A DNA stretch of 39,923 bases from an uncultured delta proteobacterium (GTDB taxonomy: Bacteria; Myxococcota_A; Polyangia; Polyangiales; Polyangiaceae): contig CAITRH010000744.1 of NCBI GenBank assembly GCA_903894755.1, positions 1 to 39,923 of the forward strand. Direction: 5' to 3'. The position numbers and the translations under genes were made by a program. Shown piece by piece: positions 11,285-32,248 of this stretch. Below the pieces are notes generated by a model. That model did not search any database and was not told the origin of the DNA. It was given only the letters and a program-made list of their open reading frames with translations. Each line of letters begins with the position of its first letter. Position 1 is the stretch's first letter.

Positions 11285-11390
11285 GCCCGCCACTCCGTTT
11301 TGGCCTGCGGTGCCTGCTCACGTACTTTAAATACGCTGCGCGGGCTCCTCGTCTGGCAGAAATGGCGGGTCTCGATCTGGACGTTGTTTA
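11285..11390. repeat. Copy A of a dispersed palindromic element (partial, one terminus)
   Basis: This stretch matches the reverse complement of the element at 14851-14999 over most of its length: cactccgttttggcctgcgg, the tgcctgctcacgtactttaa core, and gcgggctcctcg. The right end reads ggcgggtctcgatctggacg followed by ttgttta. Relative to the 14.9-kb copy it lacks the outer left terminus and an internal stretch of about 10-15 bp. The short palindrome around cgtactttaaatacg is shared. The rest of the 246-bp gap between the GNAT and porin genes holds nothing else I can recognise; the promoter of the porin is presumably in 11391-11456. Confidence 0.8.
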
Positions 11391-11456
11391 GGTTGGGTTA
11401 ACGAGCTCGCGATGGTGCCGGCTATGACGACGAGGATCCCTGGCGGTGGATAGACC

Positions 11457-13100
11457 ATGCACATGACTTCGAGATGTTTCGCATTCCGCGGCTGGCTCCT
11501 CGCGACAGCTCCTCTGGTGGCGCAGGCCCAGCCCCTAGCCCTCTCCCCCGAGCCCGCCCCCGCGCCAGCCCGCGTTCAGGAGCCTCCTGCTGTTGTCCCC
11601 CGCGCCACGGCTGCGGACGGGTTCCCGTTGGCTGGACGTTACGGTGAGTTCTTCTATCTTCGCGACGCTGACGACCTCTTTCGCCTCTATCTCCAGGGAC
11701 GTGCCCACATCGACGGGTATGTCCCTCTCGGTCCTGGGCTCTCCGACCTGGGCCCTGCCCTGGGCCTCAAACCGACGGTCTTTCTGCGTCGTGCCCGTGT
11801 CGAAATATCTGGCGAGTTTCTCACCAACTGGCAATGGCTCATCGGCGGCGAGTGGGGACAGAGCGCCGTCGACAACCCTGCTGCAACCACAGGAGCCCTC
11901 AACTGCTCGGTCGACGCAAAGACTGGAGCCTCGAGCTGCTCCCAACGCGCGGGTTCGGTGGAAGCTGCCAATTCTAAAGCGGCGCCTACCGATGTCTTGA
12001 TCAATTACCGCTTCCATAGCCTACTCAACTTCCAGGTCGGGCAGTTCAAGCTCCCGTTCACTCTCGAGAACCGCACCAGCGAGAACGTCACGCCGTTTCT
12101 CGAAAACTCGCTCGCAGTCCGTAACCTTGGCACCCCCCTGACCTCAGGACGGGACATCGGTCTCATGATCTGGGGGCTGACAAAGCCCTCCTATCTCCAC
12201 TACAGTGTGGGTCTCTTCAACGCAGAAGGGGCCAATCGTCCCAACGTAGACTCCAACGGCGACGTTGTCGGACGCGTGTTCGCCCATCCCTTCGTCGAAG
12301 CTGGCGTTCCGCTGCTCGCCCGACTCCAGCTCGGTGTCTCCTTCCGTTACGGGTTCCGTAGCGCCAAGTGGGTCGGCTACGACGTCAATGCCTATACCAC
12401 GTCTGGTGGGTACGCCTTCTGGAGACCCACCTACACCGATTCCAATGGAAACCTGGTGCACATTATCCCCAGTGGACGGCAGTCCGCGTTCGCCGCCGAG
12501 CTGTATTGGCCTGTCAGCCGCTTCGACCTACTTGGCGAGTTCGTGTACATCTCCAACAACACCCGCGAGGCCCGCGACTTTTACCAGCAATCCGCCTACA
12601 CTGAACGCTTTGGTTCGCTCCAGGGGTACGCCTATTACGCCACCCTGGGCTACTGGATTTTCGGGGAACGTCAATATGTCCGCAGGCCAGGATACCTCGA
12701 CCCGTCCCACATCGACTTCACCAAGCCAACGGCCCCCTCGCATGCGTCCCTCGAGGCCCTCGCCCGCTTCGAACAGCTGCGGGTCACCTACGACGGCGCG
12801 TCACGACAAGGGAGCACTGCCGACGCAAAGACCCCTTCCGGCGACATCAACGTCAATGCCTTCACCCTGGGTCTGAACTATTGGGCGACCAGGCGAGTCC
12901 GCATCACTGCCAACTACACGTACTACAATTTCCCAGACAGCGCGCCGGCCTCCGCGTCGGCGACAGGCGGACCGCTCCAGACCTCCGCCCAGCGCGCCGT
13001 TGCGCCCGGGCAGAACCTTGCAAGGGGACTCGATGACAGCGTTCGCGACACCAACCACGGCTTTCACGAGCTGTCTTTCCGCTTCGGCGTTGGCTTTTGA
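11457..13100 (+). CDS. Phosphate-selective-type porin (OprP/OprO family)
   Basis: A 547-residue outer-membrane protein with an N-terminal signal peptide (hydrophobic WLLATAPLVAQAQP). A Pro/Ala-rich linker is followed by a barrel. The family pattern is clear: FLRRARVEISGEFLTNWQWL (first hairpin), INYRFHSLLNFQVGQFKLPF, the segment LENRTSENVTPFLENSLAV, then TSGRDIGLMIWG. The last strand ends in FRFGVGF with a terminal Phe, as expected for BAM-dependent insertion. OprP-like porins are trimers that take up phosphate or polyphosphate, but distant members have other anion substrates, so specificity is not assured. A start at the second in-frame ATG (11463) is also possible. A small lipoprotein follows 15 bp downstream and is probably co-transcribed. 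Confidence 0.88.
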   Translation: MHMTSRCFAFRGWLLATAPLVAQAQPLALSPEPAPAPARVQEPPAVVPRATAADGFPLAGRYGEFFYLRDADDLFRLYLQGRAHIDGYVPLGPGLSDLGPALGLKPTVFLRRARVEISGEFLTNWQWLIGGEWGQSAVDNPAATTGALNCSVDAKTGASSCSQRAGSVEAANSKAAPTDVLINYRFHSLLNFQVGQFKLPFTLENRTSENVTPFLENSLAVRNLGTPLTSGRDIGLMIWGLTKPSYLHYSVGLFNAEGANRPNVDSNGDVVGRVFAHPFVEAGVPLLARLQLGVSFRYGFRSAKWVGYDVNAYTTSGGYAFWRPTYTDSNGNLVHIIPSGRQSAFAAELYWPVSRFDLLGEFVYISNNTREARDFYQQSAYTERFGSLQGYAYYATLGYWIFGERQYVRRPGYLDPSHIDFTKPTAPSHASLEALARFEQLRVTYDGASRQGSTADAKTPSGDINVNAFTLGLNYWATRRVRITANYTYYNFPDSAPASASATGGPLQTSAQRAVAPGQNLARGLDDSVRDTNHGFHELSFRFGVGF

Positions 13101-13115
13101 CAGGGACCAAGACGT

Positions 13116-13301
13116 ATGAAAACCACTCTCCTCAGCTCCGTGTTGACCGTGATTGTCCTGGGCGTGGCGGCGTGCTCCTCCGACGAAGGGAGTCCCAACC
13201 CTGCCCCCGTGGCCGACGCCTCCGACGCACAAAACGACCGCAGCTCGGCGGTCGACGCTCCCGCAGACAACGTTGTGGCTGCCGACGCTGCCGCGGACTG
13301 A
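13116..13301 (+). CDS. Very small Asp/Ala-rich lipoprotein
   Basis: A 61-residue product: a lipoprotein signal (MKTTLLSSVLTVIVLGVAAC, lipobox VAAC) followed by a low-complexity, acidic, alanine-rich stretch ending in VVAADAAAD. It has no folded domain and is reminiscent of the disordered tethers at the front of many Myxococcota lipoproteins, so it may be a free-standing remnant of a longer one. It lies 15 bp after the porin gene. A short inverted repeat and a run of five T follow the stop (13300-13321), too weak to call a terminator with confidence. Confidence 0.6.
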   Translation: MKTTLLSSVLTVIVLGVAACSSDEGSPNPAPVADASDAQNDRSSAVDAPADNVVAADAAAD

Positions 13302-13389
13302 CCTCTCAGGTCCCTGTTTTTCGGGCGAAACCGGTCGGCAGAAGCCCCTCAGTGAGGATGCGAAAGCATCACCTTCTCACCTGGTGCAC

Positions 13390-13516
13390 GGTAGCCTCAC
13401 CGGCTCTCCCCGGATGGGGGTCCTCCCCGGCGGGGAGAAACACCGGTTGCGATGTTGCCTCAGCTCTCCCCGCCGGGGAGGACCCCCATCCGGGAGAGAG
13501 CCAAGAACAGGCTACC
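13390..13516. repeat. Intergenic long-hairpin element
   Basis: Arms at 13404-13437 and 13466-13498 are reverse complements over about 33 bp with a single one-base length difference, around a 28-bp loop. Outside them, ggtagcct (13390-13397) pairs with aggctacc (13509-13516). The arms contain internal self-complementary ccccggcgggg stretches. Such a stem could work as a bidirectional terminator between the porin/lipoprotein operon and the convergent diguanylate cyclase gene, or be a REP-like mobile hairpin. It does not carry the TAAAC-type ends of the other elements here. The remainder of the 13302-13736 gap shows no gene. Confidence 0.85.
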
Positions 13517-13736
13517 TTGCGATGACTGACTAGCAAATCTCCGGGACGGCGCGTCACCGTCCCTGCGCTCGAGGCGCATAGGCTGGTGCACTCGCAACCT
13601 CACGGAGAGGCTTCTGCTCGACCAACGTTGCTTGCGTATTTTTCCCTTGTCTCCGTTGCGTTGAGGTGACCCTAGACGGCCCGTGAGAACTACACAACCC
13701 TTATGTGCTCATGGCGTCCAAATTAAGGAACCCCTT

Positions 13737-14840
13737 CTAGTTTTGCGCCTCGACGGTCCGGTCCCGTCCCGCCCGCTTGGCTTCGTAAAGCGCGCGGTCG
13801 GCTCGCTCGATCCAGCTCGTTCCGCTTTCACCCTGGCGAAGCTCGGCAAGCCCCGCGGACACCGTGAACCCGAAACTTGTCTCGCCGCGCTTTATCTGCA
13901 TCTTGCGAATGGACGTCAAAAGACGCCCTGCCAACATCCGTGCGTCGCCCATCCTCGTGTCGCGAAGCACAATGGCAAATTCCTCTCCGCCATAACGAGC
14001 TACGAAGTCCCCATTGCGAGGAAAACACCGAACGAGCGCATCCCCTAGCTTGCGAAGCACCTCGTCACCCGTGGGATGTCCGTAGTCGTCGTTCACCCGC
14101 TTGAAGTTGTCCACGTCCACCATGAGCAGACACGCCGCTTTTCCAAAAAGGCCATCGAGTGCCACCACCCGCTTGACATAGTCGTCAAATGCCCCGCGAT
14201 TGAACAGCTTCGTAAGCGGATCTTGAGCCCCTTGACGTCGTGCTTCGTCGAGCTCCGCAGTCAGCTGTTTGACCCGTCCCGCGAGCTCCTGAAGATGCGT
14301 CGCCTGGGCGCGCTTGCGCTCTTCAAGGAGCACCGTCACCGCCGTTACCACCCCCAACGCCGCGCGCCTAAGTTCGTCCGGCGAATTGCTCTCTGCGGCC
14401 TTCTTCAGCGTGTCAAGCTGTCCCCGGACACGCCCATCCACTTCGTTGTCGCCCACAATGACGTTGTTCAGACGCTGGATGAAGTCCCAGATGGTGTCGC
14501 GAAGCCCCGCGATCGAACGGTTCACCGTCGTCGCTTCCCCCTCGCGAATTTCAGTGAAAAAACGCCTAAGGCCGTTCCAATTACGACGCTTGGTGGGGGT
14601 CGAGGTTCCCGGAGGCGGGGCGAGGAGCAACACGTGACGTGCCCAGGCCTCGCATTGGTCCGCGATCTGCGCGGGTTCGAGCCCCTCGATGGGAAGCGTA
14701 TGGGTCGACACAAGCCGTAGCATCGCCGCGATCACGTCGAGCCCGACAGTCAGATCCTCTCCGCCTAGGTCGTCGCCAGGCGCGCTCGGAGGTGTGCTGA
14801 CCGTCACTTTTCCAGGTTTGATCGAGCCGCGCCCAAACAT
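13737..14840 (-). CDS. Diguanylate cyclase (GGEEF) with a helical N-terminal region
   Basis: The C-terminal half is a complete GGDEF domain: DPLTKLFNRGAFDDYVKRVV, then LLMVDVDNFKRVNDDYGHPT, the active-site loop ARYGGEEFAIVL, and RADRALYEAKRAGRDR at the end. An RNGD sequence lies five residues before GGEEF, so the RxxD product-inhibition site is present and the enzyme should make c-di-GMP under feedback control. The first 190 residues are helical with no recognised sensor domain, followed by a short coiled coil (LLEERKRAQATHLQELAGRV). The frame extends to a GTG at 14858, inside the terminus of the neighbouring repeat element. The first ATG, at 14840, is taken as the start; no Shine-Dalgarno sequence is obvious before it. 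Confidence 0.9.
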   Translation of the reverse strand: MFGRGSIKPGKVTVSTPPSAPGDDLGGEDLTVGLDVIAAMLRLVSTHTLPIEGLEPAQIADQCEAWARHVLLLAPPPGTSTPTKRRNWNGLRRFFTEIREGEATTVNRSIAGLRDTIWDFIQRLNNVIVGDNEVDGRVRGQLDTLKKAAESNSPDELRRAALGVVTAVTVLLEERKRAQATHLQELAGRVKQLTAELDEARRQGAQDPLTKLFNRGAFDDYVKRVVALDGLFGKAACLLMVDVDNFKRVNDDYGHPTGDEVLRKLGDALVRCFPRNGDFVARYGGEEFAIVLRDTRMGDARMLAGRLLTSIRKMQIKRGETSFGFTVSAGLAELRQGESGTSWIERADRALYEAKRAGRDRTVEAQN

Positions 14841-14850
14841 GCGCGGACTA

Positions 14851-14999
14851 TAAACCACGTCCAGATCGAGACCCGCCGTTTCTGCTAGACGAGGCTTTGG
14901 CCGAGGAGCCCGCGCAGCGTACTTAAAGTACGTGAGCAGGCACCGCAGGCCAAAACGGAGTCTGGCGGGAACAGCGGGTTTCGAGATGGGCGTGGTTTA
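14851..14999. repeat. Copy B of the dispersed palindromic element, complete with inverted ends
   Basis: The left end (taaaccacgtccagatcgag) and the reverse complement of the right end (taaaccacgcccatctcgaa) agree over about 27-37 bp, giving terminal inverted repeats around a roughly 75-bp core with its own palindrome (gtacttaaagtac). The 149-bp length, matching ends and lack of coding potential fit a MITE-like or REP-like non-autonomous element. The core recurs inverted at 11285-11390. The element begins 11 bp upstream of the diguanylate cyclase ATG, so it has replaced or supplies that gene's upstream region. Confidence 0.85.
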
Positions 15000-15024
15000 A
15001 CCCAAGGGGACAAGGCGCGGCGCA

Positions 15025-15942
15025 TTACGGCCTGGAACGCATGATCTTCCTGGGGATCAATCCCCTTTGCGAAAGGATCTGCTTGGCCTCTTGCTGAAGT
15101 AGCGGATGGATGCGCTTGCCTTGTACAAACGCGCTTAGAAGATGCGGGTTCATGTCGGCGAGCTTGCGCAAGGCTCTTGACGCCCCCTTCATGTCGCTTT
15201 GTCCGGCGTAGGCGAAGGCGCGTGCACGCCACATCTGCATCTTGATTTCCGCGTATTCGGGATCGTCCGGGTTGAAAAGCTCGAGGAGATCCATGGCTTT
15301 CTTGGCCTGCCCCGTTCGTCCCCAAGCCTCTCCCGCCACCGCCGCAAACATCGCTCGGGTCTTGGGCTCCTGTTGCTTGCCTACCTCCATTGCGTCGACG
15401 AGGGACCGCGCAGGTCCTGTTTCACCGAGCATCAAGTGGATCATCGCGCGCATGGAACGCACTTGGTCCGCCACGGGAGCGAGCTGTCTCTCGATAGGGA
15501 TCGTTTCGAGCGTCGAAAGGGCCTTGCGTGGATCTTCCTGAAGCTCCAACTGGGCACGGGCCAACAGAGCCTGGGTGTCGTTTTTCTTGAAATCCGAGTC
15601 GAGTCTTTTCAATGCCTCTTTCCGTCCCTCGGCCGTGTCCGCAGACTGGAGAAGCTTGTTGAGAGCCTGAGACTTCTTTGCGAAACGCCACGCCCAGACC
15701 GCAAGTCCCACCGCCGCCACGGTCACGACAGCCGTCACCAAAAGAGGGATCCGACTCTTGGTCCAACTCGCAATCCCTGCGGCCAGAATCCAAACTACCA
15801 CCGCACCTCCGCCGAAACGGAGCGCAATGCGCTTTAGGTCGAAGGGAGATTGGACAGGTCGCGAAGGGTCGGGTTTGGAGAGGTCGCGAAGCTCTTTCTG
15901 GACATCTGCGGCGCTCTTCTTGCGCTTACGGTCGGCTGGCAC
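15025..15942 (-). CDS. Inner-membrane protein with TPR-like cytoplasmic or periplasmic domain
   Basis: The 305-residue product starts with a highly charged segment (MPADRKRKKSAADVQKELRD), followed by two membrane helices (ALRFGGGAVVVWILAAGIAS and IPLLVTAVVTVAAVGLAVWAW, about residues 41-85). A helical C-terminal 200 residues has TPR-like periodicity (ALLARAQLELQEDPRKALST, AEIKMQMWRARAFAYAGQ). No catalytic motif is seen. It probably works as a protein-interaction scaffold at the membrane. It is divergent from the pentapeptide-repeat gene, with about 100 bp between starts, and ends 26 bp from repeat element B. Confidence 0.65.
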   Translation of the reverse strand: MPADRKRKKSAADVQKELRDLSKPDPSRPVQSPFDLKRIALRFGGGAVVVWILAAGIASWTKSRIPLLVTAVVTVAAVGLAVWAWRFAKKSQALNKLLQSADTAEGRKEALKRLDSDFKKNDTQALLARAQLELQEDPRKALSTLETIPIERQLAPVADQVRSMRAMIHLMLGETGPARSLVDAMEVGKQQEPKTRAMFAAVAGEAWGRTGQAKKAMDLLELFNPDDPEYAEIKMQMWRARAFAYAGQSDMKGASRALRKLADMNPHLLSAFVQGKRIHPLLQQEAKQILSQRGLIPRKIMRSRP

Positions 15943-16044
15943 AAGGGGCGTCTAGCGCGGAGGCCCACGGCAAGCAAACGACCGTTTGGACCGCGTGTGC
16001 GAAGGGCTTGTACCAAACGCTCGCCCCAGGTGATCCTCGCGGTC

Positions 16045-17244: not shown

Positions 17245-17274
17245 ACCGTCGCGGGTTAGACTCGGCCGCGTCCC

Positions 17275-18147: not shown

Positions 18148-18208
18148 ACCTCCCGTCGCCAGCTGCGATGGATGGTCCCGAGCCTCAGGAGAATTCCAAT
18201 TGGAAGCG

Positions 18209-18445
18209 ATGCAGCCCTTTCGTGCCCACGTTCAAAACGGCCGCCTCGTCATCGACGAGCCTACCAACTTGCCCGAGGGCGAGGTCGTCTACTTGACGCC
18301 GGTTGACGGCATACAAGGCGCAGACTTCGACGCGGACGAACGATCGGCGTTGCACCAAGAGCTGCAAGCCGCCATCGCCGAAGCAGACGCCGGGCAGACG
18401 GACGACTTCGCGCGGGTCATCGCCGAGCTGCAGCGACAACTGTGA
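18209..18445 (+). CDS. Putative antitoxin of a ParE/RelE-type pair
   Basis: A 78-residue acidic protein. Its N-terminus, MQPFRAHVQNGRLVIDEPTN then LPEGEVVYLTPV, matches the small beta-hairpin style of AbrB/DUF104-like antitoxins. The C-terminal half is a helix (LHQELQAAIAEADAGQTDD) that would wrap the toxin. It stops four bases into the toxin gene (GTGA overlap), the usual arrangement for toxin-antitoxin pairs. Start at ATG 18209; the frame is open upstream over the end of the E2 gene. Confidence 0.7.
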   Translation: MQPFRAHVQNGRLVIDEPTNLPEGEVVYLTPVDGIQGADFDADERSALHQELQAAIAEADAGQTDDFARVIAELQRQL

Positions 18446-20276: not shown

Positions 20277-20314
20277 CCGTTTACGTATCGCCCGACCGGG
20301 ACTAGCGTTTGCGC

Positions 20315-21987: not shown

Positions 21988-21990
21988 CCG

Positions 21991-23514
21991 GTGGCGAAGC
22001 ATTACGACGTGGTGGTGCTCGGCGGAAGCTTAGGAGCGCTGGCCACGGCGGCGTTGTTAGCGCGCCGGTCGTGGCGGGTGTTGGTGCTTGGCCAGGGGTA
22101 TCGCAGGTCGCTCTACGGGTTCGAGGGGCACACGCTCGCGCGTCGTCTGTTTACCTTTGTGAGCTACACGTCGCCCGTCTGGAGTCGGGTGATCATCGAG
22201 CTTGCGCAGTCGCAGGCGTTTCGGAAGCGCGTGATGGCCTTGGACCCGATGTTTCAGGTCCTTGGAAAGCGGCTTCGGCTCGATGTCCCGCCCGATGCGG
22301 AGCTGTTCGGGACCTACGTCGAGAGGGTGTTTCCAGGGTCTCGTCGCATCGTTGACGAGCTCTATATGGAGCTTGCGCGGACCAATGCGTCAGCCGACGC
22401 GGCGTTCGAGCGTGACGCGGTTTGGCCTCCCGGGACCTTTTGGGAACGTCGCGAGACCGAGCGCATCGCAGAGACCTTGCCGCATCTGGACGACGGCGAG
22501 GTGCCATCGTTTCTGGCACAGTTTCCACGGGATCATGGCTACCGGGCGTTGGTGGAGGTCCCCGCTGTATTTGCGAGCCACGCCACGAATTTCCCCTCGT
22601 TTGCGCTAGCTCGTTTGCACGGGGCGTTCACACGCGGCTTGGTTCGGTTGGCGCGTGGCGAGGACGAGGTGGTGGACTTTCTGGTCGATCGGATTCGCGC
22701 TCACGGGGGGCAAGTCGAGCTGGGCGAGCAGGCGGTGCGGATTGCGGTGAAAGCCGGGCGTGTGACTGGGGTCCTGCGTGAGGGAGAGGCGCGCGCGGTA
22801 GGGGCGAATTTTCTGGTGTCGAGCCTTTCGACGCGTGGGGTGGTGGACTTGGCTCCCGAGTTTCCGCTACCTCGGAGGGTCTTTGCGGGGCTTCCAGAGC
22901 TCTTTGCGAGGGAGTTCCGGTTTGTGCTGTCGGCGGTAGTACGTGACGAGGGGCTGGCCGAGCCACTGGGCCACGAAGCGTTTTTACTGCCAGATGACGC
23001 GAGGCTTCCGCGGGTGCATCTGACAAGGGGGACAGGCAGCGAACCGGGGACCAGTCTGTTGGTGGCCGAGGCGCTGTTTCCAGACGGGACTGCGGTACCC
23101 GTGGTGCGTGCGAGGCAGGTCGTGCTCGACATGGTGGCAGGGGTTCTTCCGTACCTAGAGCAGCACTTGGTACTGGTGGACTCGCCACACGATGGACTTC
23201 CCCTTTGGGACTACCGGACAGGGCGGCGACTGGAGGTAGAGCGGGCGTTATTGCGGTCAGGGGGAGCGAGTCTCGAGGCGGAGCCGATGGCGGCGCGGTG
23301 GTTGGTGGAGCCGTTTCACTTCCATGGTCTCGGGGCCGAGCCATTGCGGACGCCGCTAGGGGGAGCATTTATAGTGGGTCCCACGGTACTTCCAGCGTTG
23401 GGACAGGAGGGGGAGCTATTGGCCGCGTGGAGCGTGGCGCGGCTGATCACGAGGACCGATCGAGCGAGGGAGAAGATGCGGCGGGAGCTGTGGAGCCGTG
23501 TGGAGATAGGATGA
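21991..23514 (+). CDS. FAD-dependent oxidoreductase, phytoene-dehydrogenase-like
   Basis: A 507-residue flavoprotein with GTG start at 21991. The N-terminal Rossmann motif is DVVVLGGSLGALATAALLAR (a G-G-x-L-G-A variant of GxGxxG). The substrate-domain helices and a C-terminal GGAFIVGPTVLPALGQEGEL segment, which binds the FAD ribityl chain, follow the CrtI/protoporphyrinogen oxidase pattern. It probably oxidises or isomerises a lipid or isoprenoid, but nothing around it is a carotenoid gene, so the substrate is open. It sits three bases after purN and overlaps the next lipoprotein gene by four bases, so the purine genes, this enzyme and the lipoprotein look like one transcript. Confidence 0.75.
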   Translation: MAKHYDVVVLGGSLGALATAALLARRSWRVLVLGQGYRRSLYGFEGHTLARRLFTFVSYTSPVWSRVIIELAQSQAFRKRVMALDPMFQVLGKRLRLDVPPDAELFGTYVERVFPGSRRIVDELYMELARTNASADAAFERDAVWPPGTFWERRETERIAETLPHLDDGEVPSFLAQFPRDHGYRALVEVPAVFASHATNFPSFALARLHGAFTRGLVRLARGEDEVVDFLVDRIRAHGGQVELGEQAVRIAVKAGRVTGVLREGEARAVGANFLVSSLSTRGVVDLAPEFPLPRRVFAGLPELFAREFRFVLSAVVRDEGLAEPLGHEAFLLPDDARLPRVHLTRGTGSEPGTSLLVAEALFPDGTAVPVVRARQVVLDMVAGVLPYLEQHLVLVDSPHDGLPLWDYRTGRRLEVERALLRSGGASLEAEPMAARWLVEPFHFHGLGAEPLRTPLGGAFIVGPTVLPALGQEGELLAAWSVARLITRTDRAREKMRRELWSRVEIG

Positions 23515-23900: not shown

Positions 23901-23934
23901 CCGCGGCTGTCGGAACCATGCTTATCGTCGGTTT

Positions 23935-24225
23935 CGGGAGATAAGCGCTCGGGATCGCCCTAAACCTACGAAGTTTCGGGACGCAAGCGCCAGGTTTCGG
24001 GAGACAAATGTCAAAGATCGCCCGAAACTTGCGAAGTTTAGGGACACAAGTGCTCGGTTTCGGGAGACAAGCGTCAAAGATCGCCCGAAACTTGCGAAGT
24101 TTAGGGACACAAATGCCAGGGATCGCCCGAACTCTGCGAAGTTTAGGGACACAAGCGCTAAAGATCGCCCGAAACCGACGAAAGTTCGTTCGAAACCGAG
24201 CAAGACCGCAGCTTGAGAAGGGCGA
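23935..24225. repeat. Tandem repeat array 2, built from 21-bp sub-units
   Basis: Copies of gatcgccc begin at 23953, 24016, 24079, 24121 and 24163, spaced 63, 63, 42 and 42 bp, all multiples of 21. The 63-bp period breaks into three 21-bp pieces with a common plan (gatcgcccgaaacttgcgaa, then g; tttagggacacaagtgctcg, then g; tttcgggagacaagcgtcaa, then a). Both strands stay open through it, giving low-complexity frames (NLRSLGTQ on plus, NFASFGRSL on minus) that I do not annotate as genes. It fills the gap between the small lipoprotein and the next gene. Confidence 0.9.
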
Positions 24226-24255
24226 ACCCTTCGAAACCATGGTAGCTTGACGTCC

Positions 24256-24594: not shown

Positions 24595-24603
24595 GAGACA
24601 GCG

Positions 24604-26046
24604 ATGAAGACCACGAGTACAAGGCTCCGGCAGTTCGGAGCCATGACGTTAGCGATGGGAGTGGGCGGGGGTTGGGCGTCTTCGGCCCAAGGGTTCTCCG
24701 AGGACATTTGCGTGCCCAAGGACGGCGGCGCAGTCCAGGAATGCGCCGTTCTTCCCGCCGCCTGCCTGCCGGTGGGGACCACCAGTAACGACTGCCTTGC
24801 AGCAGCACTCGTTGAGTTTCTTGCTGTCCCAGGCAAGACGGGATTCATGCGCAGCCTGGTGCATTCGGACATCACGCATCTTCTTGCCCAGGCCGCGGGG
24901 TTCTCGGCCGACGACGCGTATTGGATCGCGGCCTACGACGAGGTTCCCGACTATGGAATCTTCGAGCCCTTCGATCTCAATGGAATGCCAGTGGGCAATG
25001 GCACCCTGCGCACGGCGCAACTGGACGGGCTCGTACGCACCAATATTCCCACGGGAGGCGCGCTCTTTCATTACGTTGCACCGCGCAGCTCGCCCTCACC
25101 GATTGACGGGCTTCATCCCCAGGTAGGCAACGCGGAGATCGAGGGGCTCTTGGCGCATCTTCGCACGTGGGCGATGGCGGGAAGCGGCAATAGCCATCCC
25201 CTATGCACTGGGGGGCTGACCGTAGCCAGCGATGCTGGGGATCTCGCGACAGGAAATCCGTGTTATCCAGCAGCAGATGCGAGTGTCCCGTTGCGAGGAA
25301 GCTTTGCCATCTTGGGACCCACGGCCGTTCCATTTTCCATCACCACGGGCCCGCAAACTTTGGTGCCGAGCTCGAGCCCACCTTTGTTTTCCGACGCGTT
25401 TGACAGCCTCGTGGGTGGCGAGGGCGGCGATCCGACGCGGATCGCCAACGCGCGTCTGGGCATTTACCTCCATGTGCTCGGGGATCGTGTTTCCCACCAT
25501 GTGTGCTCAGACAAGTCCGCGCTTTCAGGTCCGACCGGTCCCGAGTCGGCGTTCCGACTCGACATGACCGATCCGGAGTGCGCGCAGGGGCCCCATGCGT
25601 TGAGGCATATCTGGGAACAGGCAGTGGACTTCAACCAGCTTACTCCGGAAAACAAGACGACCAATGCGATAGTGGGGGATGTCTACGAGGAGCTGGTGGT
25701 CTTTGCCAAACGGCGCGGAGTGGCAAACCCGCAGGCCGACGATGGGTCGCGCAAGACAGCGCTTTATGCGGCTATCCTGTCCGTGATGCAGAAAACTGGA
25801 GCTGACGTAAGGATCCGTGCGCTCGGGGCGCTTGCGTGTTCTTACGGATACGCCCCGTTTCCTGGAGCTCCGGCCTGTGCCAACGTGTCCGACGCGGGGG
25901 TCGACGCCGGGGTTGACGCGGGAACCGGCGGGGGAAGCCCGGGAAACTCGGGGTGTGCCGTGACGACGGGGGCGCACACTGCGGTTGCCGGGTTTCTTGC
26001 CGGTGTGGCGATGCTGGCGGCGTTGTTCAGGCGCAAACGAAGGTAA
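24604..26046 (+). CDS. Exported protein with MYXO-CTERM-like sorting tail; possible zinc phospholipase-like core
   Basis: A 480-residue product with a signal peptide (MTLAMGVGGGWASSAQGFSE). The C-terminal tail has an Asp/Ala/Gly linker (DAGVDAGVDAGTGGGSPGNS), then GCAV, a hydrophobic helix (AVAGFLAGVAMLAALF) and RRKRR. That is the Cys, transmembrane helix, Arg-cluster layout of MYXO-CTERM proteins, which are processed and displayed at the cell surface in Myxococcota. In the core, HSDITHLLAQAAGFSADDAY with WIAAYDEVPD and later IYLHVLGDRVSHHVCSDKS are rich in His and Asp, spaced like metal ligands in zinc-dependent phospholipase C/P1-nuclease-like helical enzymes; this is only a hypothesis. Its TAA stop is the first three bases of repeat element C. 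Confidence 0.65.
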   Translation: MKTTSTRLRQFGAMTLAMGVGGGWASSAQGFSEDICVPKDGGAVQECAVLPAACLPVGTTSNDCLAAALVEFLAVPGKTGFMRSLVHSDITHLLAQAAGFSADDAYWIAAYDEVPDYGIFEPFDLNGMPVGNGTLRTAQLDGLVRTNIPTGGALFHYVAPRSSPSPIDGLHPQVGNAEIEGLLAHLRTWAMAGSGNSHPLCTGGLTVASDAGDLATGNPCYPAADASVPLRGSFAILGPTAVPFSITTGPQTLVPSSSPPLFSDAFDSLVGGEGGDPTRIANARLGIYLHVLGDRVSHHVCSDKSALSGPTGPESAFRLDMTDPECAQGPHALRHIWEQAVDFNQLTPENKTTNAIVGDVYEELVVFAKRRGVANPQADDGSRKTALYAAILSVMQKTGADVRIRALGALACSYGYAPFPGAPACANVSDAGVDAGVDAGTGGGSPGNSGCAVTTGAHTAVAGFLAGVAMLAALFRRKRR

Positions 26047-26317
26047 ACCAAACCTACTTTGAGAATCCGCCGCTTCCTCGACCTCACCCCCACCTCACCC
26101 CCCAACCCCCCTCTCCCTCGACATCATCCTTGCCCTTGTGGGCAAGGACGATCGTCTTCGAGAGAGGGGGGCTCGGAACTGCGGCTCTCCTCCCCCCTCG
26201 CTCGAAGACAATCCTGATTGCCCGAATGGGCAAGAAGGATGTCGAGGGAGAGGGGGGCTGGGGGGGTGAGGTCTGCGCGAGCGGGCAAGTTGCGGTTCTC
26301 AAAGTGGGTTTGGTTTA
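26044..26317. repeat. Copy C of the dispersed element: 274-bp imperfect palindrome
   Basis: Terminal inverted repeats at 26044-26070 and 26292-26317 match over about 26 bp with few differences (both ends begin TAAACCAAACC when read inward). Inside, a second pair of long arms (about 26078-26165 and 26195-26270: cctcacccccc..., tctccctcgacat..., ttgggcaa-type segments) is again complementary, so transcripts would fold into one long rod. There is no coding potential. The first TAA is the stop codon of the upstream gene. The right half of the gap to 26459 shows no other gene. Confidence 0.9.
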
Positions 26318-26458
26318 ATTGCCGCCTGAGCGCGTTCGGTTGAATAGAGAGCCGTCCCCCTTCGTATGCTCTCATGCTAGGTGTCCGCGCGGCGGTGGTC
26401 GGGGGGCAGGCACGGCCCGCGTGGACTTGGTTTGAACCTGAAGAAGGAACGGCAAGAA

Positions 26459-27547
26459 ATGCAGACGATGCGGAATCTGTTGGGTGTTTTCCTGGGCGGC
26501 GCGATCGTGGTGTTCGGAAGCGGCGCGCTGGCCGACTGGCCCGTGGGGGTGGCCGCCATTCGGTCCGAGCCCAACAAGACGGTCCTGGTGACGGGAAGGC
26601 TCGAGTCGGGAAGGCCGATGGCCGACCTGTCGTGGGCGTCGAGCAGCTCCATGGCGTGCTTTCCCGCCACGCAAAACGCGAAGTTCAGGGGCAACCATGT
26701 CCTCTTCAGCACGAAGCTGCCCGCCCACGCGGAGATGTACATCACGGTCACGCCGACGGACCCGACCAAAGACCTGAGCATCTATGCGTACTCTATCGGG
26801 ACCAACAACTTTCGAGTCCCTCCCACTGTCCCGTCGGCTGTCAGCTGCGAGGCCGAGTACAAGTGGGATCGACCGAAAGCGGGAAGGACCCAGGGGGCAA
26901 GCCGCACAGTGCGTCTCAACGCCACCACCAACCCGTACAATGTGCTTATCGGAGTCAGCGGGCCCGCGGGCGCGACAACGGGCGAGTTCGCCCTCAGTAT
27001 CGAGCTCAAAGGCGGCGCGGCTGCAAGCACTGCTGCGCGGGGGGGCGCCGCTGCAGGACCCGCAACCGGATGGCCTGCTAACGTGACACCGGTGTCTGCA
27101 GCGAAAGGCCAGACGGTCGCTGTCACGGGAAGGCTCGAGTCAGGCGCTCCGATGGCCGATCTGTCCTGGGCGTCGAACAGCTCGATGGCGTGCTTTCCCG
27201 CCACGCAGAACGACAAGTTCCGAGGAAACCACGTGTTCTTCTCTGCGTCGCTTCCCCCGCGGTCCGAGATGTACATCACAGTGACGCCGAAGGATCCCAC
27301 CAAGGATGTCAGCATCTATGCGTACATGGTGGGGACCAACAACTACTCGCTTGCGCCGAACATCGCGTCGGCGGTGACCTGCGAGGCCGAATACAAGTGG
27401 GACCGTCCCAAGAGGGGCAGGACCCAGGACTCGACGCGCACGGTGCGCCTCAACGCAACCACGAACCCATACAACGTGCTTATCGGCGTCAGCGGTCCGG
27501 CCGGGTCCACGGCCGGCGAGTTCACGCTGAGCATCGAGACGAAGTAG
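26459..27547 (+). CDS. Secreted protein made of two tandem copies of one domain
   Basis: A 362-residue product with a signal peptide (LLGVFLGGAIVVFGSGALA-DW). Two copies of a roughly 150-residue domain (about 28-180 and 205-362) are nearly identical along most of their length. Each contains SSMACFPATQN, KFRGNHV, EMYITVTP, DPTK, CEAEYKWDRPK, RTVRLNATTNPYNVLIGVSG and a GEFxLSIE end. An Ala/Gly linker (GGAAASTAARGGAAAGPATG) joins them. The closing strands resemble bacterial pre-peptidase C-terminal (PPC-like) beta-sandwiches. There is one cysteine pair per copy. ATG 26459 follows a purine-rich ggaacggcaagaa ribosome site. No enzymatic motif; binding or surface structural role likely. Confidence 0.7.
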   Translation: MQTMRNLLGVFLGGAIVVFGSGALADWPVGVAAIRSEPNKTVLVTGRLESGRPMADLSWASSSSMACFPATQNAKFRGNHVLFSTKLPAHAEMYITVTPTDPTKDLSIYAYSIGTNNFRVPPTVPSAVSCEAEYKWDRPKAGRTQGASRTVRLNATTNPYNVLIGVSGPAGATTGEFALSIELKGGAAASTAARGGAAAGPATGWPANVTPVSAAKGQTVAVTGRLESGAPMADLSWASNSSMACFPATQNDKFRGNHVFFSASLPPRSEMYITVTPKDPTKDVSIYAYMVGTNNYSLAPNIASAVTCEAEYKWDRPKRGRTQDSTRTVRLNATTNPYNVLIGVSGPAGSTAGEFTLSIETK

Positions 27548-28077
27548 GACTTCCGCCGCGAGCTACTAGGTTGTAGACTGTCGAAGTGAAAACGACAGCG
27601 ATGTGGCTCCTGATTGCGATCACCCTGGGGGGAGTGCAGCTCACAAACTGCCCCCTTCCGCAGCTCCTCCTGCCGTTTGCGCCATGCGTCGAGGATGTCG
27701 CGTAGCTCGTCTCCTCGTCGGCCCGGGTTCGTCGCCTGGAAGGAACGAATGTGGCCCCCCTGGACGCCCGCTGGAACCATCAACTTGTGCGCATAGTCGA
27801 GGACCATCTCGACCTTATCGGGGGAAATCATATCGATCCGGTTCACGAGGGCGAGCAAGCCCTCTACGGAAACCTGCGACCCAATCAGCGACTTACCTCG
27901 TTTCTCCTGACCCGCCACTGCCGCGCGAAGGTGTGGAGCTTCGATCTGTTCCTTGATGCGCAGCGCTTCGGCGAGAGCCTCTTTCATGGCCACCGCTTGC
28001 GGCAGGCCGCGTAACCGCTCTACGAGTTCCTCGTACTCCGGCTTCCACGACTTGTCGCTGTTTCCGGTCTCGTGCAT
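27343..28077 (-). CDS. Helical hypothetical protein with foreign 3' end (truncated)
   Basis: From ATG 28077 the first 140 residues read as a real, charged helical protein: MHETGNSDKSWKPEYEELVE, then LPQAVAMKEALAEALRIKEQ, LRAAVAGQEKRGKSLIGSQV, SVEGLLALVNRIDMISPDKV and ILDAWRKRQEELRKG. Past about 27650 the frame runs antisense to the lipoprotein stub and to the 3' end of the duplicated-domain gene, and stops only at 27343, so the native C-terminus is lost. The EKRGKSLIGSQV stretch recalls a P-loop region but lacks a proper GxxxxGK(S/T). I cannot assign a family. Its start is divergent from the chemosensory operon. Confidence 0.5.
   Translation of the reverse strand: MHETGNSDKSWKPEYEELVERLRGLPQAVAMKEALAEALRIKEQIEAPHLRAAVAGQEKRGKSLIGSQVSVEGLLALVNRIDMISPDKVEMVLDYAHKLMVPAGVQGGHIRSFQATNPGRRGDELRDILDAWRKRQEELRKGAVCELHSPQGDRNQEPHRCRFHFDSLQPSSSRRKSYFVSMLSVNSPAVDPAGPLTPISTLYGFVVALRRTVRVESWVLPLLGRSHLYSASQVTADAMFGASE
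27586..27705 (+). pseudogene. Truncated lipoprotein N-terminus
   Basis: GTG 27586 (or ATG 27601) begins KTTAMWLLIAITLGGVQLTN followed by Cys, a plausible signal peptide with LTNC at the processing site. After about 22 residues the frame becomes antisense to the minus-strand gene ending here and stops at 27705. It is read as the 5' stub of a lipoprotein gene cut by a rearrangement near 27650. Confidence 0.45.
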
Positions 28078-28177
28078 GCTCGGTCCATCTGCAGGAGGCC
28101 TGTACCGTGTGCGCTCGCTCGTTCCATCCGCTTCGTTCTCGACGTGAGGCGACCGTAAGCTGCCGGGGGGACACCTC
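28078..28177. promoter_or_regulatory. Divergent upstream region of the chemosensory operon
   Basis: This 100-bp stretch is the only non-coding space before the eight-gene operon and must hold its promoter if the operon is autonomous. I see no convincing -35/-10 pair and no sigma-54 GG-N10-GC site. The start codon of the first cheW is GTG at 28178, preceded by a weak ccgggggg purine/pyrimidine mix. Confidence 0.3.
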
Positions 28178-28612
28178 GTGGAGGTGATCCTGCTGTCTGC
28201 CGGTAGCAGGCACTGTGCGGTCCCGCGCGAGCACGTGCTCGAGGTCATGCGGCCACTTTCCCTGCAAGCACTAACGGGGGCGCCAACCTACCTGCTTGGC
28301 CTCGCCGTGGTGCGAGGGCGTCCCACGCCCGTCGTCCATCTGGGCCTTTTGCTCGGGGAACAAGAGGCCTCCGTCGCTCGCTGGGTGACCGTACGCACGG
28401 GAGAGCGTCAGGTCGCCCTCGCCGTGAGTGCCGTGGAAGGGCTCGTATCCCTCGAGACGCATGCCTTCGAGGAGTCTGCGCCGCTCCTCGGTCTCTGTCG
28501 GGACAACGCCATCGCCGAGCTTGCGACCCGGGATGGGCAGCTCGTTTTTCTCCTCGAGACCAGCCGCCTGGTGGAGAAGTGCCCCTCCGTGCTGCCCGAA
28601 GGCTCACCGTGA
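28178..28612 (+). CDS. CheW-type coupling protein (WspB-like position)
   Basis: A 144-residue CheW domain from GTG 28178: EVILLSAGSRHCAVPREHVL (first strands), VMRPLSLQALTGAPTYLLGL, then AVVRGRPTPVVHLGLLLGEQ, the V-R-G-x-x-x-P-V-x-(D/H)-L signature, and a second sub-domain ending in VFLLETSRLV. CheW proteins bridge the chemoreceptor tip and the CheA kinase. First gene of the operon; its TGA overlaps the GTG of cheR by four bases (GTGA). Confidence 0.9.
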   Translation: MEVILLSAGSRHCAVPREHVLEVMRPLSLQALTGAPTYLLGLAVVRGRPTPVVHLGLLLGEQEASVARWVTVRTGERQVALAVSAVEGLVSLETHAFEESAPLLGLCRDNAIAELATRDGQLVFLLETSRLVEKCPSVLPEGSP

Positions 28613-30084
28613 GAAAGGGGGCGTCCGTCACCGATCCCATCGCGCTGAAACAATTCGCGAGCGCCGTCAAGGAACGCTTCGGGATCGAGACCGATGACCC
28701 GGTTCGCGCCGGATGGGAGGCCATTCTTGGCCGTCGTCAGCGCGCCGTAGAAGCCTCTTCAGCCTTTCAGTATGTCGCCAAGTGGCTCGCCGGTCAGCTG
28801 GGCCCCGAGGAGGACCGTGAGGTCGCTGTGGAGCTGAGCGTTCCAGAGACCTATTTCTTTCGCTATCCGGACCACTTCGAAGCGCTGGGCGAGGTGGTCC
28901 TTCCGTCGCTCCTCAAACGACCTGGGCTCTCGCGCACCGTGCGCGTGCTGTCCATCGGATGCGCGTCCGGGGATGAACCGTACTCGTTGGCCATCGTCCT
29001 GCGTGAGCGCGGGTGCACGGGCAGCGACTGGAACGTTGTGATCCGCGGGATCGACGTCAACGGAGCGATGCTGAGCAAGGCTCGGCAGGGACGCTACACC
29101 TCGTGGTCGCTGCGAAGCACGTCGGCCGATCTCCGGGCCCGCTATTTCCAAGAGGTCGGCGCGCGCGAGTTCGAAATTGCGCCGGAAATCCGCTCCATGG
29201 TCGACTGCTACGAGAGCAATCTGCTCGACGACGACCCGCGGATCTGGGGCCCCGAGCGCTACGACATCGTCTTCTGCCGAAACGTGATCATCTACCTGTG
29301 CCAGAGCGCCATCGCGCGGCTGGTGAGCAAAGTCGCCAGCGCGCTGACGCCCGGCGGGTTCTTCTTCGTGGGCCACGCCGAAAACCTCGGACACGTGCTT
29401 GCCGGGTTTGCAGCCTGTACCGCCGCAGGCTGCTACTTCCATCAGCGGGTCCAGACCGCGCTTCCGGAAACGTCTGTGTCGTCCACGTGGTCCATACCGG
29501 AGTCGCGTCGCGTCGAGACCGCGGATAGGCCCTCAGCACTGTCGCTCTCCATCCCGCACGCGCTGGCAGAGGAAATCGCCGCCCAGCGCGCCCTCGAGGA
29601 GGTGCTCGAACTGGTGCGTCAAGACCGTCCGGGCGAGGGGCTCGCACGGCTCGCAGCGATGCAGGGGGACATCGCCGACCGACGCGAGATCCGGATCGCA
29701 AAGGCGGCGTTGCTCGTCAATGCGGGAGGCGTGGCCGACGCGGAAACGCTGACCACGCAGCTTCTCGCGAGCGATCCGCTGGACGCCGAGGCTTGGTACA
29801 TTCGCGCACTTTGCCGTGAACGCAGCGGGGACCGGGTCGGGGCACTCGACGCGGCGGAGCGATCGGGACGAGCCGAGCCGGCGTTTGCCCTCGTGCGCCT
29901 CTACCTGGGGCTGCAGTGGAGCCGACGGGGCGATCGAATCCGCGCGCGGCAGGAGCTGGGCGACGCACTTCGCTTGCTTGGACGTGAACCCGAAGAACGC
30001 CTCCTTCTTTTCGGGGGGGGCTTCGGTCGAAACGCCCTGATGGACGTCTGCCGGCACGAGCTCGAACGCGCGGGGAAGGGGTGA
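28609..30084 (+). CDS. CheR-type receptor methyltransferase with C-terminal TPRs (WspC-like)
   Basis: A 491-residue protein. It has an N-terminal all-helical CheR domain (to about residue 80), then the SAM-dependent methyltransferase domain with VELSVPETYFFRYPDHFEAL, motif I VLSIGCASGDEPYSLAIVL, VIRGIDVNGAMLSKARQGRY and the CheR signature YDIVFCRNVIIYL. From about residue 300 it continues into a 190-residue TPR-like tail (AKAALLVNAGGVADAETLTT, DPLDAEAWYIRALCRERSGD). It methylates receptor glutamates. The fused TPR tail is the arrangement of Pseudomonas WspC rather than of the flagellar CheR. GTG start at 28609 overlaps the cheW stop; CheW2 follows after four bases. Confidence 0.93.
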   Translation: MRKGASVTDPIALKQFASAVKERFGIETDDPVRAGWEAILGRRQRAVEASSAFQYVAKWLAGQLGPEEDREVAVELSVPETYFFRYPDHFEALGEVVLPSLLKRPGLSRTVRVLSIGCASGDEPYSLAIVLRERGCTGSDWNVVIRGIDVNGAMLSKARQGRYTSWSLRSTSADLRARYFQEVGAREFEIAPEIRSMVDCYESNLLDDDPRIWGPERYDIVFCRNVIIYLCQSAIARLVSKVASALTPGGFFFVGHAENLGHVLAGFAACTAAGCYFHQRVQTALPETSVSSTWSIPESRRVETADRPSALSLSIPHALAEEIAAQRALEEVLELVRQDRPGEGLARLAAMQGDIADRREIRIAKAALLVNAGGVADAETLTTQLLASDPLDAEAWYIRALCRERSGDRVGALDAAERSGRAEPAFALVRLYLGLQWSRRGDRIRARQELGDALRLLGREPEERLLLFGGGFGRNALMDVCRHELERAGKG

Positions 30085-30088
30085 GTCC

Positions 30089-30628
30089 ATGGGACCCGAC
30101 TGGAACGAAGAGGTCGAGGCATGGCGCAAGGCCTTCGATCGGAGCTTCGCGCTTCCCGCGACGCTGGGGTCGCGCGCCGTGGAGAAATGCCGTCTGCTCG
30201 TCGTCGAGGTCGCCGGTCGTCGGTGCGCCTTCGATGTCGCGACGCTGGGTGGACTCCTCTCGATTCCGCGGATCGTTCCCGTTCCATCTCCGCTCCCCGA
30301 GTTCCTCGGGATCGTATCCGCCCGTGGCGTGCTCACTCCCGTGTACAGCCTTGCCGCGCTGCTCGGCTGGGAGCACGCGAACGAGGTCACCCACAAGTTG
30401 ATTCTGTGTCCGTCCCCCGAGAACCTCGCGCTGGCGACTGGAACGGTGCTTGGCTACGAAGAGCGCGCGCCCGAGGAGTTGATGAACTTTCAGGACACGG
30501 ACCCCGCGGGGCGGGCGATTGTCGCGGCGATGGCGATGGCGGACGGCACGCGAATCCCCATTCTCGGTCTGGGCCAACTGGTCCGTTACCTTGGTGCGCG
30601 AATCCGCGCGGCGAAAGAGAGCAGATAA
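30089..30628 (+). CDS. Second CheW-type coupling protein (WspD-like)
   Basis: A 179-residue protein with an extra N-terminal arm of about 30 residues (WNEEVEAWRKAFDRSFALPA) before the CheW fold: CRLLVVEVAGRRCAFDVATL, then LPEFLGIVSARGVLTPVYSL (the R-G-x-x-x-P-V-x-x-L signature) and IPILGLGQLVRYLG at the end. It is longer than CheW1, like WspD compared with WspB. Two coupling proteins in one operon suggest mixed receptor arrays. The MCP gene starts one base after its stop. Confidence 0.9.
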   Translation: MGPDWNEEVEAWRKAFDRSFALPATLGSRAVEKCRLLVVEVAGRRCAFDVATLGGLLSIPRIVPVPSPLPEFLGIVSARGVLTPVYSLAALLGWEHANEVTHKLILCPSPENLALATGTVLGYEERAPEELMNFQDTDPAGRAIVAAMAMADGTRIPILGLGQLVRYLGARIRAAKESR

Positions 30629-30629
30629 C

Positions 30630-32099
30630 ATGGCACGCAGATGGACCCTTGCCACAACGCTCAATCTGTCCTTCGGGGCGCTCCTTGGCTGTGTCGTCCT
30701 GTCCATCGCGGTCGGAGTGATGGCACTACGCTCGGTGGCCGTGGCCAATGATCGCGTGCTCACGGTCCATGTTCCCAACCAGCTCGATGCGGAGCGCTTG
30801 GCGAAGCACGGCGAGACCCTGGTTGCCGAGGCGCGCGGGGTGTTCCTCACGGGCGACTCGAGCTTCGAGAGCCCGATGCGAGAGGCGTCGGGCGAGTTCC
30901 GCAAGGACATCGAACGTCTGCGCAGCCGGGTGCGCACGGAGGAGGGGCGACGCATAGTCGACGCCATCGACGTTGCCGAACGCGATTTCCAGGGGGCGCT
31001 CGAGGAGGTGATCCGCGAGCGCAGGGGGGGGATGGGAATGGAGGAGACCCTCAAGGCCATACGCACCCGGACGCTTCCCCGGCGCATGGTCCTTGCCAAC
31101 CAGGCGCGCGGCTTGCTGGAACGCGAGGAGGGCTTCGTCATGGCCGGCCAGCGCGAGGTCGAGAGCGCGACGCGGTTCGCCCTGTGGTCGTTTGCCAGCG
31201 TGGGGGCGTTCGCATTGCTTCTGGGGGGAGCGATGGCGGTCCGGCTCAAGAGCTCGGTGACCCGGCAGATCGGCGGGGCGGTTCAGAGCATGAAGACCTC
31301 CACCACCGAGCTTCAGACCGCGGCGACGGAGCAGGCGTCGGTGCTCAAGGAGCAGGCCACCGCGATGAGCGAGATCGGCACGACCGTGACGGAGCTTTTG
31401 GCGACATCCCGGCAGATCGCCGAGAGTTCGCAGCGTGTCGCCACGGTCGCATCGGAGACCGCGGGCGCGGCGAACCACGGCAACCAGACCGTCATCCGGG
31501 CCCAGGAGTCGGTGACGAGCATCCGCAGTCAGGTCGATCTCATCGTCGGGCACATGCTCGATCTGGGGAAGAAGTCCCAACAGATCGGCGGGATTCTCGA
31601 GCTTATCAACGAGCTCTCCGAGCAGACCAACATCCTTGCCATCAACGCGACGATCGAAGCGGCCGGTGCTGGGGAGTCGGGGCGTCGCTTCGCGGTCGTG
31701 GCCGACGAGATTCGCAGGTTGGCCGACCGGGTGGCGAGCTTCACCAAGGACATCCGTGTGCTGATCGAAGAGATCCGGAGCTCCGTGAACACGACGGTGA
31801 TGGCGACGGAGGGGGGCTCGAAGGCCGTGGACAACGGCGCCAGGCAGGTCGGCGAAGTGGCCACGGCTTTCCAGGACATCGTGCGGCTGGTCGGGACGAC
31901 GACCGATGCAACGCGCGAGATCGAGCTGAGCACCAAACAGCAGACCACCGGAGTGGAGCAGGTCAAGATCGCCATCGGGGAGGTTGCCCAAGGGACGAAG
32001 GAGACCCAGGCTGCAGCGACGCAGACGCTCCAGACCGCGCGGCAGCTCGCCGAGACCTCCAGGGATCTCAGCGAGCTCATCGAGACGACGGGTGGCTAG
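30630..32099 (+). CDS. Methyl-accepting chemoreceptor (WspA-like), apparently without HAMP
   Basis: A 489-residue receptor. It has TM1 at about residues 10-32, a helical periplasmic four-helix-bundle type sensor (HVPNQLDAERLAKHGETLVA through MVLANQARGLLEREEGFVMA), and TM2 at about 188-208. A cytoplasmic hairpin follows, with its tip LSEQTNILAINATIEAAGAG followed by ESGRRFAVVADEIRRLADR, the universal CheA/CheW-contact region. Between TM2 and the hairpin only RLKSSVTRQIGGAVQSMKTS is found, not the usual 50-residue HAMP domain, and then a regular coiled coil begins. It ends in IETTGG with no CheR-tethering pentapeptide. The TAG stop lies at the left edge of a repeat element. Confidence 0.93.
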   Translation: MARRWTLATTLNLSFGALLGCVVLSIAVGVMALRSVAVANDRVLTVHVPNQLDAERLAKHGETLVAEARGVFLTGDSSFESPMREASGEFRKDIERLRSRVRTEEGRRIVDAIDVAERDFQGALEEVIRERRGGMGMEETLKAIRTRTLPRRMVLANQARGLLEREEGFVMAGQREVESATRFALWSFASVGAFALLLGGAMAVRLKSSVTRQIGGAVQSMKTSTTELQTAATEQASVLKEQATAMSEIGTTVTELLATSRQIAESSQRVATVASETAGAANHGNQTVIRAQESVTSIRSQVDLIVGHMLDLGKKSQQIGGILELINELSEQTNILAINATIEAAGAGESGRRFAVVADEIRRLADRVASFTKDIRVLIEEIRSSVNTTVMATEGGSKAVDNGARQVGEVATAFQDIVRLVGTTTDATREIELSTKQQTTGVEQVKIAIGEVAQGTKETQAAATQTLQTARQLAETSRDLSELIETTGG

Positions 32100-32248
32100 A
32101 CCTCACCCCCCGCTATTTCGCCCTTTCACAGCGCCCCCTCCCCATCGATGGGGAGGGGGAATGTGTAGGAGCGCGAAATCGCAGGGGGTGAGGTCTGCGG
32201 GATCGCGACGATGAAGGAAGATGCGCTTCTCAAGATGGGTTTGGTTTA
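32097..32248. repeat. Copy D of the dispersed element, inserted between the MCP and cheA genes
   Basis: The right end, 32223-32248, reads outward as taaaccaaacccatcttgag, the same terminus as element C. Inside, gacctcaccccccgctattt (32100-32119) pairs with the aaatcgcagggggtgaggtc region (about 32176-32196). An inner perfect stem, cccctccccatcgatggggagggg, lies at about 32144-32167. The left terminus is not intact: only TAG ACC, which is the MCP stop codon, resembles it. The right end stops three bases before the cheA ATG, so the element exactly fills the gap. Confidence 0.88.

Follow-up and report, generated by a model that had tools for sequence, protein, structure and literature searches.

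A probable IS630-derived family of miniature elements with palindromic cores in a genome of the Polyangiaceae

Four short repeats (A to D) with ends beginning TAAAC lie in a 39,923-nt contig stretch of an uncultured delta proteobacterium of the Polyangiaceae (assembly GCA_903894755.1, contig CAITRH010000744.1, here C744), referred to below as the window. With a probability of about 0.92 they belong to a high-copy family of miniature inverted-repeat transposable elements (MITEs) derived from an IS630 insertion sequence, in which a shell of IS630 terminal inverted repeats (TIRs) surrounds a palindromic core without genes. The identification follows from homology of the TIRs, from transposase remnants and from the TA target. 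The shell TIR has the consensus TAAACCAAACCCATCTTGARAACCGC, the outer TA of which is the target, and some copies keep the last codons of the transposase gene beside the right terminus. The repeats have the features of MITEs, i.e., they are short (52–300 bp), occur in many copies (665 end matches) and carry no transposase gene inside. Very probably they are moved by an IS630-type transposase, although the movement itself is something we infer from sequence. Contigs, loci and other genomes are cited below by numbers preceded by C, L and G.

Termini, interiors and copy number

A first-pass annotation of the window proposed a single degenerate terminus at six positions, and this is borne out: the degenerate 26-mer pattern TAAACCNNNCCNNNNTNGANANNCGC fits the termini at 11390, 14851, 14999, 26044, 26317 and 32248 with 0–2 mismatches each, and 13 of the 30 columns in an alignment of the six ends are invariant. 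At up to three mismatches the pattern has seven matches in the window (shuffle mean 0.78; 0 of 100 shuffles reach seven), the seventh of which, at position 22399 with three mismatches, is at chance level and probably due to chance. The four copies reported earlier are likewise present, but only B and C are complete while A and D are truncated. No strand is assigned to these elements or to their cores:

11285 (about) to 11390, no strand: element A, A/B type, truncated, with its right terminus at 11390 reading TAAACAACGTCCAGATCGAGACCCGC
14851 to 14999, no strand: element B, a complete 149-bp MITE with TIR TAAACCACG... and core gtacttaaagtac
26044 to 26317, no strand: element C, a complete 274-bp MITE with both ends present
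26080 to 26273, no strand: core of C, a GACCTCACCCC...GGGGTGAGGTC palindrome, a module known without TIRs in other genomes
32099 to 32248, no strand: element D, with its right terminus at 32248, lacking the left TIR arm and starting at the core palindrome
32099 to 32195, no strand: core of D, a GACCTCACCCC...GGGGTGAGGTC palindrome with a CCCCCTCCCCATCGATGGGGAGGGGG hairpin

The left end of element A is lost, and compared with B the element has an internal gap of 12 nt. The annotation's division of the interiors into at least two types is real, and more than two were found.

Throughout the assembly (6,777,678 bases in 778 contigs) TAAACCNNNCCNNNNTNGANANNCGC is matched 665 times at up to two mismatches, against nine matches in a reversed control. 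At up to three mismatches the C/D form of the end occurs 422 times and the A/B form 149 times, with no match in either control. The two forms are identical at 19–21 of 26 positions; beyond TAAA they agree at 17 of 22 positions for the second A/B form and at 15 of 22 for the first, values equalled by 2 and 23 of 200,000 letter shuffles, respectively. By this comparison the A/B and C/D types represent one terminus in variant forms. In two chimeric elements (L049:6176-6363 and L116:5031-5303) the left end is of A/B type and the right end of C/D type. The counter-case named by the annotation, that the two forms are alike only by chance or that no further copies exist, thus fails on both counts. 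Among other genomes of the same family or order, none of which is of the same genus, the C/D-form end was found in none of 38 and the A/B-form end in none of 58, and a search for the exact C/D end in wider genome contigs gave no locus among the matches listed.

Sizes were taken from a sample of 81 stretches of the genome (970 kb including the window), which were partly picked for holding matches. This sample contains 170 ends with up to three mismatches. Of the left-right pairs, 29 are shorter than 3 kb, and 26 of these are at most 300 bp long, a few of them with a poor end on one side. They fall into groups of 149 bp (seven elements, B included), 155–163, 185–198 and 268–300 bp, plus one of 72 bp. 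At up to four mismatches, complete elements of all kinds number 47, three of which have ends of a second element, IS630-a (see below). On 40 evenly numbered contigs (329 kb in total) we counted 30 ends at up to two mismatches; 20 of the 40 have at least one. MITE termini or cores were found at 27 of 77 contig ends tested compared to 6 of 359 internal windows; these repeats are therefore a frequent cause of assembly breaks and explain part of the fragmentation.

The link to IS630 transposases and the target site

The evidence supports the earlier suggestion that a single transposase mobilises MITE-like elements; the family of that transposase is IS630 (DDE) rather than the tyrosine transposases associated with repetitive extragenic palindromic sequences (REP sequences; RAYT). 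Transposases of the clade in question match Pfam DDE_3 and HTH_33. A DDE_3 scan of the genome gave four matches (C640, C549, C155, and C742), of which the first three belong to IS630-a, whose end differs, while in the fourth (L041) a transposase fragment of 41 residues abuts a TAAACCAGACC... terminus. C432 (L128) and C459 (L129) carry further remnants, and the one on C432 ends in WVKDELDPEEEKLGI and a stop, running straight into TATACCAAACCTAATTTTAAATCCCC. Another genome of the phylum (G125) has a copy with both ends, TAAAGCAGATTTACTTCGAAAACCGG and TAAACCACTATTACTCCGAAAACCGG, at L123:624-1819; a frameshift and a stop interrupt this copy too, and it scores 129 bits against the NCBIfam model NF033545 IS630 (cut-off 100), compared to 29–70 bits for the fragments of the genome studied here.

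Relatives of the remnant were collected from plasmids (46 records, best identity 64%) and from genome contigs, where 127 of 391 stretches encode one; 80 of the 127 were retained, and 12 loci among these (L139–L150) were examined. For 16 loci (L139–L150, L136–L138 and L123; two of these, L136 and L137, represent a single element carried by two plasmids of one strain) we then determined, blind to the MITE sequence, which pair of inverted repeats beginning with TA matched best. Nine of the 16 gave a pair matching at 20–23 of 28 positions, mostly 1.2 kb apart (913 bp in L145). The transposase fragments of these paired relatives, which include cyanobacteria and Microvirga, are 57–65% identical to the remnant query. 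For eight of the nine paired loci, each of the 16 ends matches the consensus MITE ends at 15–21 of 26 positions, whereas the best of 269 other 26-mers starting with TAAA in the same loci reached 14–15. The relatives' transposases end in EEEKLRFST and a stop, or similarly, and those codons overlap the right TIR. Among 18 MITE ends assigned to the '3p' class, 10 read KLR(F/V)S at the same place, one of them continuing to a stop, and the right end of element C, AAGTTGCGGTTCTCAAAG, translates as KLRFSK.

Several observations weigh against this derivation. First, seven of the 16 relatives have no clear TIR pair: the pairs of L138, L139, L142, L149 and L150 are weak (14–18 of 28), and L143 and L144 have no clear one because they are located near contig ends. 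Second, the KLRFS count is partly circular and not independent, since the motif later read as codons had served to define the '3p' class. Third, the 5'/3' polarity is often lost, as 79 of 130 ends belong to the '5p' class and five of 26 short pairs consist of two 5p ends. Fourth, the fragment on C742 is joined to a 5'-type and not a 3'-type end and its C-terminus is missing, which makes it a rearranged remnant. Fifth, no intact transposase copy bearing these ends was found in the genome; the search for an autonomous partner gave the remnants on C432, C459 and C742, in an assembly that breaks in these repeats. The annotation had proposed looking for a transposase gene flanked by the same ends, and what was found is the IS630 remnant of C432 running into a TIR, with neither an intact copy nor a RAYT flanked in this way; its statement that the window holds no transposase agrees with the absence of an IS630 match on C744. 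Finally, a search with the joined flanks of 27 elements added no usable empty site, so that duplication of TA is seen in one clear comparison (described below).

Three longer pairs were discarded as autonomous copies. The 1012-bp pair in L108 is really a 52-bp minimal element and a degenerate end with a hydrolase-like open reading frame (ORF) between them (a label obtained by reading the ORF, without a family search), no transposase was recognised by eye in the 550-bp pair in L092, and the 1360-bp pair in L090 was dropped for its poor ends. Separately, the remnants in L041 and L129 both adjoin the same CACTGCAG...CAGTGTCCGTGCAGG tandem-repeat sequence, which suggests a duplicated composite.

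IS630-a is represented in the window as follows:

27546 to 27569, minus strand: solo IS630-a end, an exact match to CTAGTAGCTCGCGGCGGAAGTCCT, overlapping the stop codon of the ORF at 26381-27547

In the genome CTAGTAGCTCGCGGCGGAAGTCCT occurs 128 times at up to three mismatches (control 0). It could be argued that the IS630-a transposase (C640, C549, C155), rather than the remnant clade, mobilises the elements. Its 3' ends are located at three contig edges, so that IS630-a may be multicopy, and one hybrid element (L108:12283-12453) combines an IS630-a end with a TAAACC end at its opposite side. However, CTAGTAGCTCGCGGCGGAAGTCCT has no evident similarity to the TAAACC ends apart from TA, and the TAAACC TIR matches a transposase clade other than that of IS630-a. 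As its ends differ, IS630-a is set aside as the mobiliser, and we consider this role for it improbable.

An IS630-a end also provided the target site. In L108 a 52-bp palindromic element is inserted at such an end, which exists unoccupied in 48 exact copies of CTAGTAGCTCGCGGCGGAAGTCCT, and a comparison of filled and unoccupied sites shows that TA was duplicated. The base preceding TA at the ends is C in 78 of 132 cases and G in 9 of 132, compared to 4813 and 6322, respectively, of 15983 NTA trinucleotides on one strand of the same sequence. Judged from these sites the target is TA, preferably within CTAG, and the target duplications that the annotation had proposed looking for are represented by the nested comparison together with the CTAG bias. 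Other spanning matches from the empty-site search were rejected as self-matches to neighbouring repeats, the exception being the IS630-a end at 27546 of the window. In the mechanism proposed for these MITEs, an IS630 transposase supplied in trans would bind the 26-bp TIRs and excise the element, which would then enter CTAG/TA sites and duplicate the TA. Such insertion at TA within CTAG would explain the ends, the TA, the bias and the copy number.

Position beside genes, folding and other repeats

The window elements sit at gene ends. The stop codon of the ORF at 24604-26046 is the TAA of element C. Element D takes up nearly all of the spacer between the ORFs at 30519-32099 and 32252-34384, and since the ATG of the latter lies three bases past the element its ribosome-binding region is inside D. 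From reading the ORFs, the two neighbours of D can be labelled as methyl-accepting chemotaxis protein-like and CheA-like, and the locus looks like a chemosensory cluster.

Together with the strong folds of B, C and D (z -13.4 and -10.5 for B, -16.1 for C and -5.9 for D relative to shuffles), this position raises the question of whether the repeats are not mobile at all but are maintained by selection as regulatory or terminator hairpins. That seems a poor explanation of the family: the truncated element A folds barely better than its shuffles (z -1.84), the ends are missing from the 58 relatives searched for the A/B form and the 38 searched for the C/D form, and the nested insertion, the TIRs and the TA/CTAG bias fit transposition. 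The host may nevertheless make secondary use of the elements, including an action of the hairpins on transcripts. The least probable reading, raised as an alternative by the annotation, is that a Y1 tyrosine transposase mobilises the ends as REP-like sequences; the palindromes are strong and the genome does have a Y1_Tnp remnant (C267), but TIR pairs, a TA target and TIR homology to IS630 do not fit REP sequences, and in the fetched stretches neither the termini nor GACCTCACCCC lie alongside the Y1_Tnp loci from a search of four genomes (this remnant, two loci each in G162 and G018, none in G216), so that the ends receive no support as REP/RAYT. Nor does the head of the core, GACCTCACCCC, show a GTAG or CGTC tag at the palindrome end.

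Other repeats were noted in passing. In G162 a RAYT-like Y1_Tnp gene (L257, G162:C176:338-676) is bracketed by a GC-rich inverted repeat of another kind (CGCCCGCTGAAGCGGG... and CTGCAGGAG...) and is possibly a REP/RAYT unit of its own. Downstream of the ORF at 11457-13100 the window has a perfect 30-bp inverted repeat enclosing a loop of 26 bases (13409-13494), which is unlike the MITEs, and tandem repeats with a 21-nt periodicity (spacings 21; 63, 63, 42) at 1244-1726 and 23928-24167 are alike in inverted orientation.

Cores as separate modules and comparison with known systems

Judged by its distribution, the GACCTCACCCC...GGGGTGAGGTC palindrome in C and D forms a module of its own. The gapped core pattern is matched 140 times in the genome and 58 times in G162, which is of the same order but another family, with a few matches in six others, and the GACCTCACCCC core is present in 8 of 59 genomes including this one, with a control of 0 everywhere. 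Copies inspected from seven related genomes have varied flanks and no TAAACC shell, and occur as solo units and inverted pairs of about 106–182 bp. Of the 82 GACCTCACCCC sites in our sample, 61 lie no more than 110 bases downstream of a terminus, 16 do not (one or two of the 16 having a degenerate terminus) and five are at a stretch edge; the cores at L108:3487-3586 and L070:5044-5227 are unshelled on both sides. The C-rich gacctcaccc arms assigned to C/D by the annotation do have a REPIN-like architecture, but they are located in the interior repeat, which is also found without a shell. The core of B, on the other hand, is always shelled, with both termini in eight of nine cases and one terminus in the ninth.

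A further core, CCCAGGG...CGCCCCTTCGGGGCTG, occurs 32 times in the sample, 19 times with a TAAACC terminus upstream, 11 times without and twice at an edge, and its pattern was found in none of the 58 relatives. One copy is in the window:

39815 to 39923, plus strand: CCCAGGG...CGCCCCTTCGGGGCTG core, running off the contig end, with no TAAACC terminus within 150 bases upstream of CGCCCCTTCGGGGCTG

Several of the 11 copies without a TAAACC terminus bear IS630-a ends, and the CCCAGGG/CCCCTTCGGGG core is thus common to the TAAACC shell and the IS630-a shell. A complete IS630-a shell holding this core lies at L058:2777-3057; its core aligns with four TAAACC-shell elements over 204–238 bases at 71–76% identity (E 1e-28 to 1e-38), and the alignments exclude the outer 31–38 bases or more of the shell.

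From the shared cores and the one hybrid we infer capture and exchange. Cores may have entered shells by insertion or recombination and then been amplified together with them, and recombination between cores may have swapped ends with the second IS630 family. We propose, tentatively and as a reading somewhat less likely than not, that these are modular MITEs in which IS630 shells capture and trade REPIN-like cores, recombination in the core switching the transposase that mobilises a palindrome between two IS630 families. The usual description of bacterial MITEs makes them deletion derivatives of a single insertion sequence. In the present family one palindromic core is found in two unrelated IS630 shells, and another core type occurs unshelled and in other genomes. 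Such sharing suggests how palindromic repeats gain mobility and how a MITE could outlive its own transposase. The identity as MITEs is in itself ordinary; what differs is the core common to two shells. Literature on myxobacterial MITEs and on the core sequence gave nothing that was recognised as these repeats, by which we do not deny that core exchange may be in print.

IS630-family insertion sequences (NF033545; L136 of Microvirga ossetica, L140 of Nostoc linckia, L146–L148) share the TIR motif and the TA termini, and the overlap of the transposase C-terminus with the right TIR recurs in some MITE ends; they differ from the MITEs in being about 1.2 kb long and encoding a transposase. The Correia/NEMIS elements of Neisseria are alike by description in their TA termini, TIRs of ~24 bp and size variants that differ by an internal segment, but the part of PMC2229807 cited here names no source insertion sequence for them. 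REPINs with their RAYTs, as portrayed in the cited part of PMC3733652, resemble the GACCTCACCCC core in being composed of a head and a hairpin and in occurring as singles and inverted pairs, whereas here there is no RAYT link, the head is not GTAG or CGTC and the core rides in an IS630 shell. The BOX elements of Streptococcus pneumoniae are also modular small repeats, of 67 to 637 bp, but their modules are internal to one family and the cited part of PMC3049150 describes no exchange of cores between two TIR families. The nearest known case, on a comparison of described properties, appears to be RUP with IS630-Spn1; the present elements would work like RUP and are not claimed to be RUP. In the cited parts of PMC2229807 and PMC3049150, RUP of S. 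pneumoniae is a simple AT-rich unit of 107 bp in about 110 copies, and the likeness consists in a small non-autonomous repeat with IS630-like TIRs, a TA target and insertions in or near other insertion sequences. Unlike RUP as described there, the present family comprises several core types and C/G-rich palindromes, its elements range from 52 to 300 bp, its ends number several hundred, and one core is common to a second TIR family.

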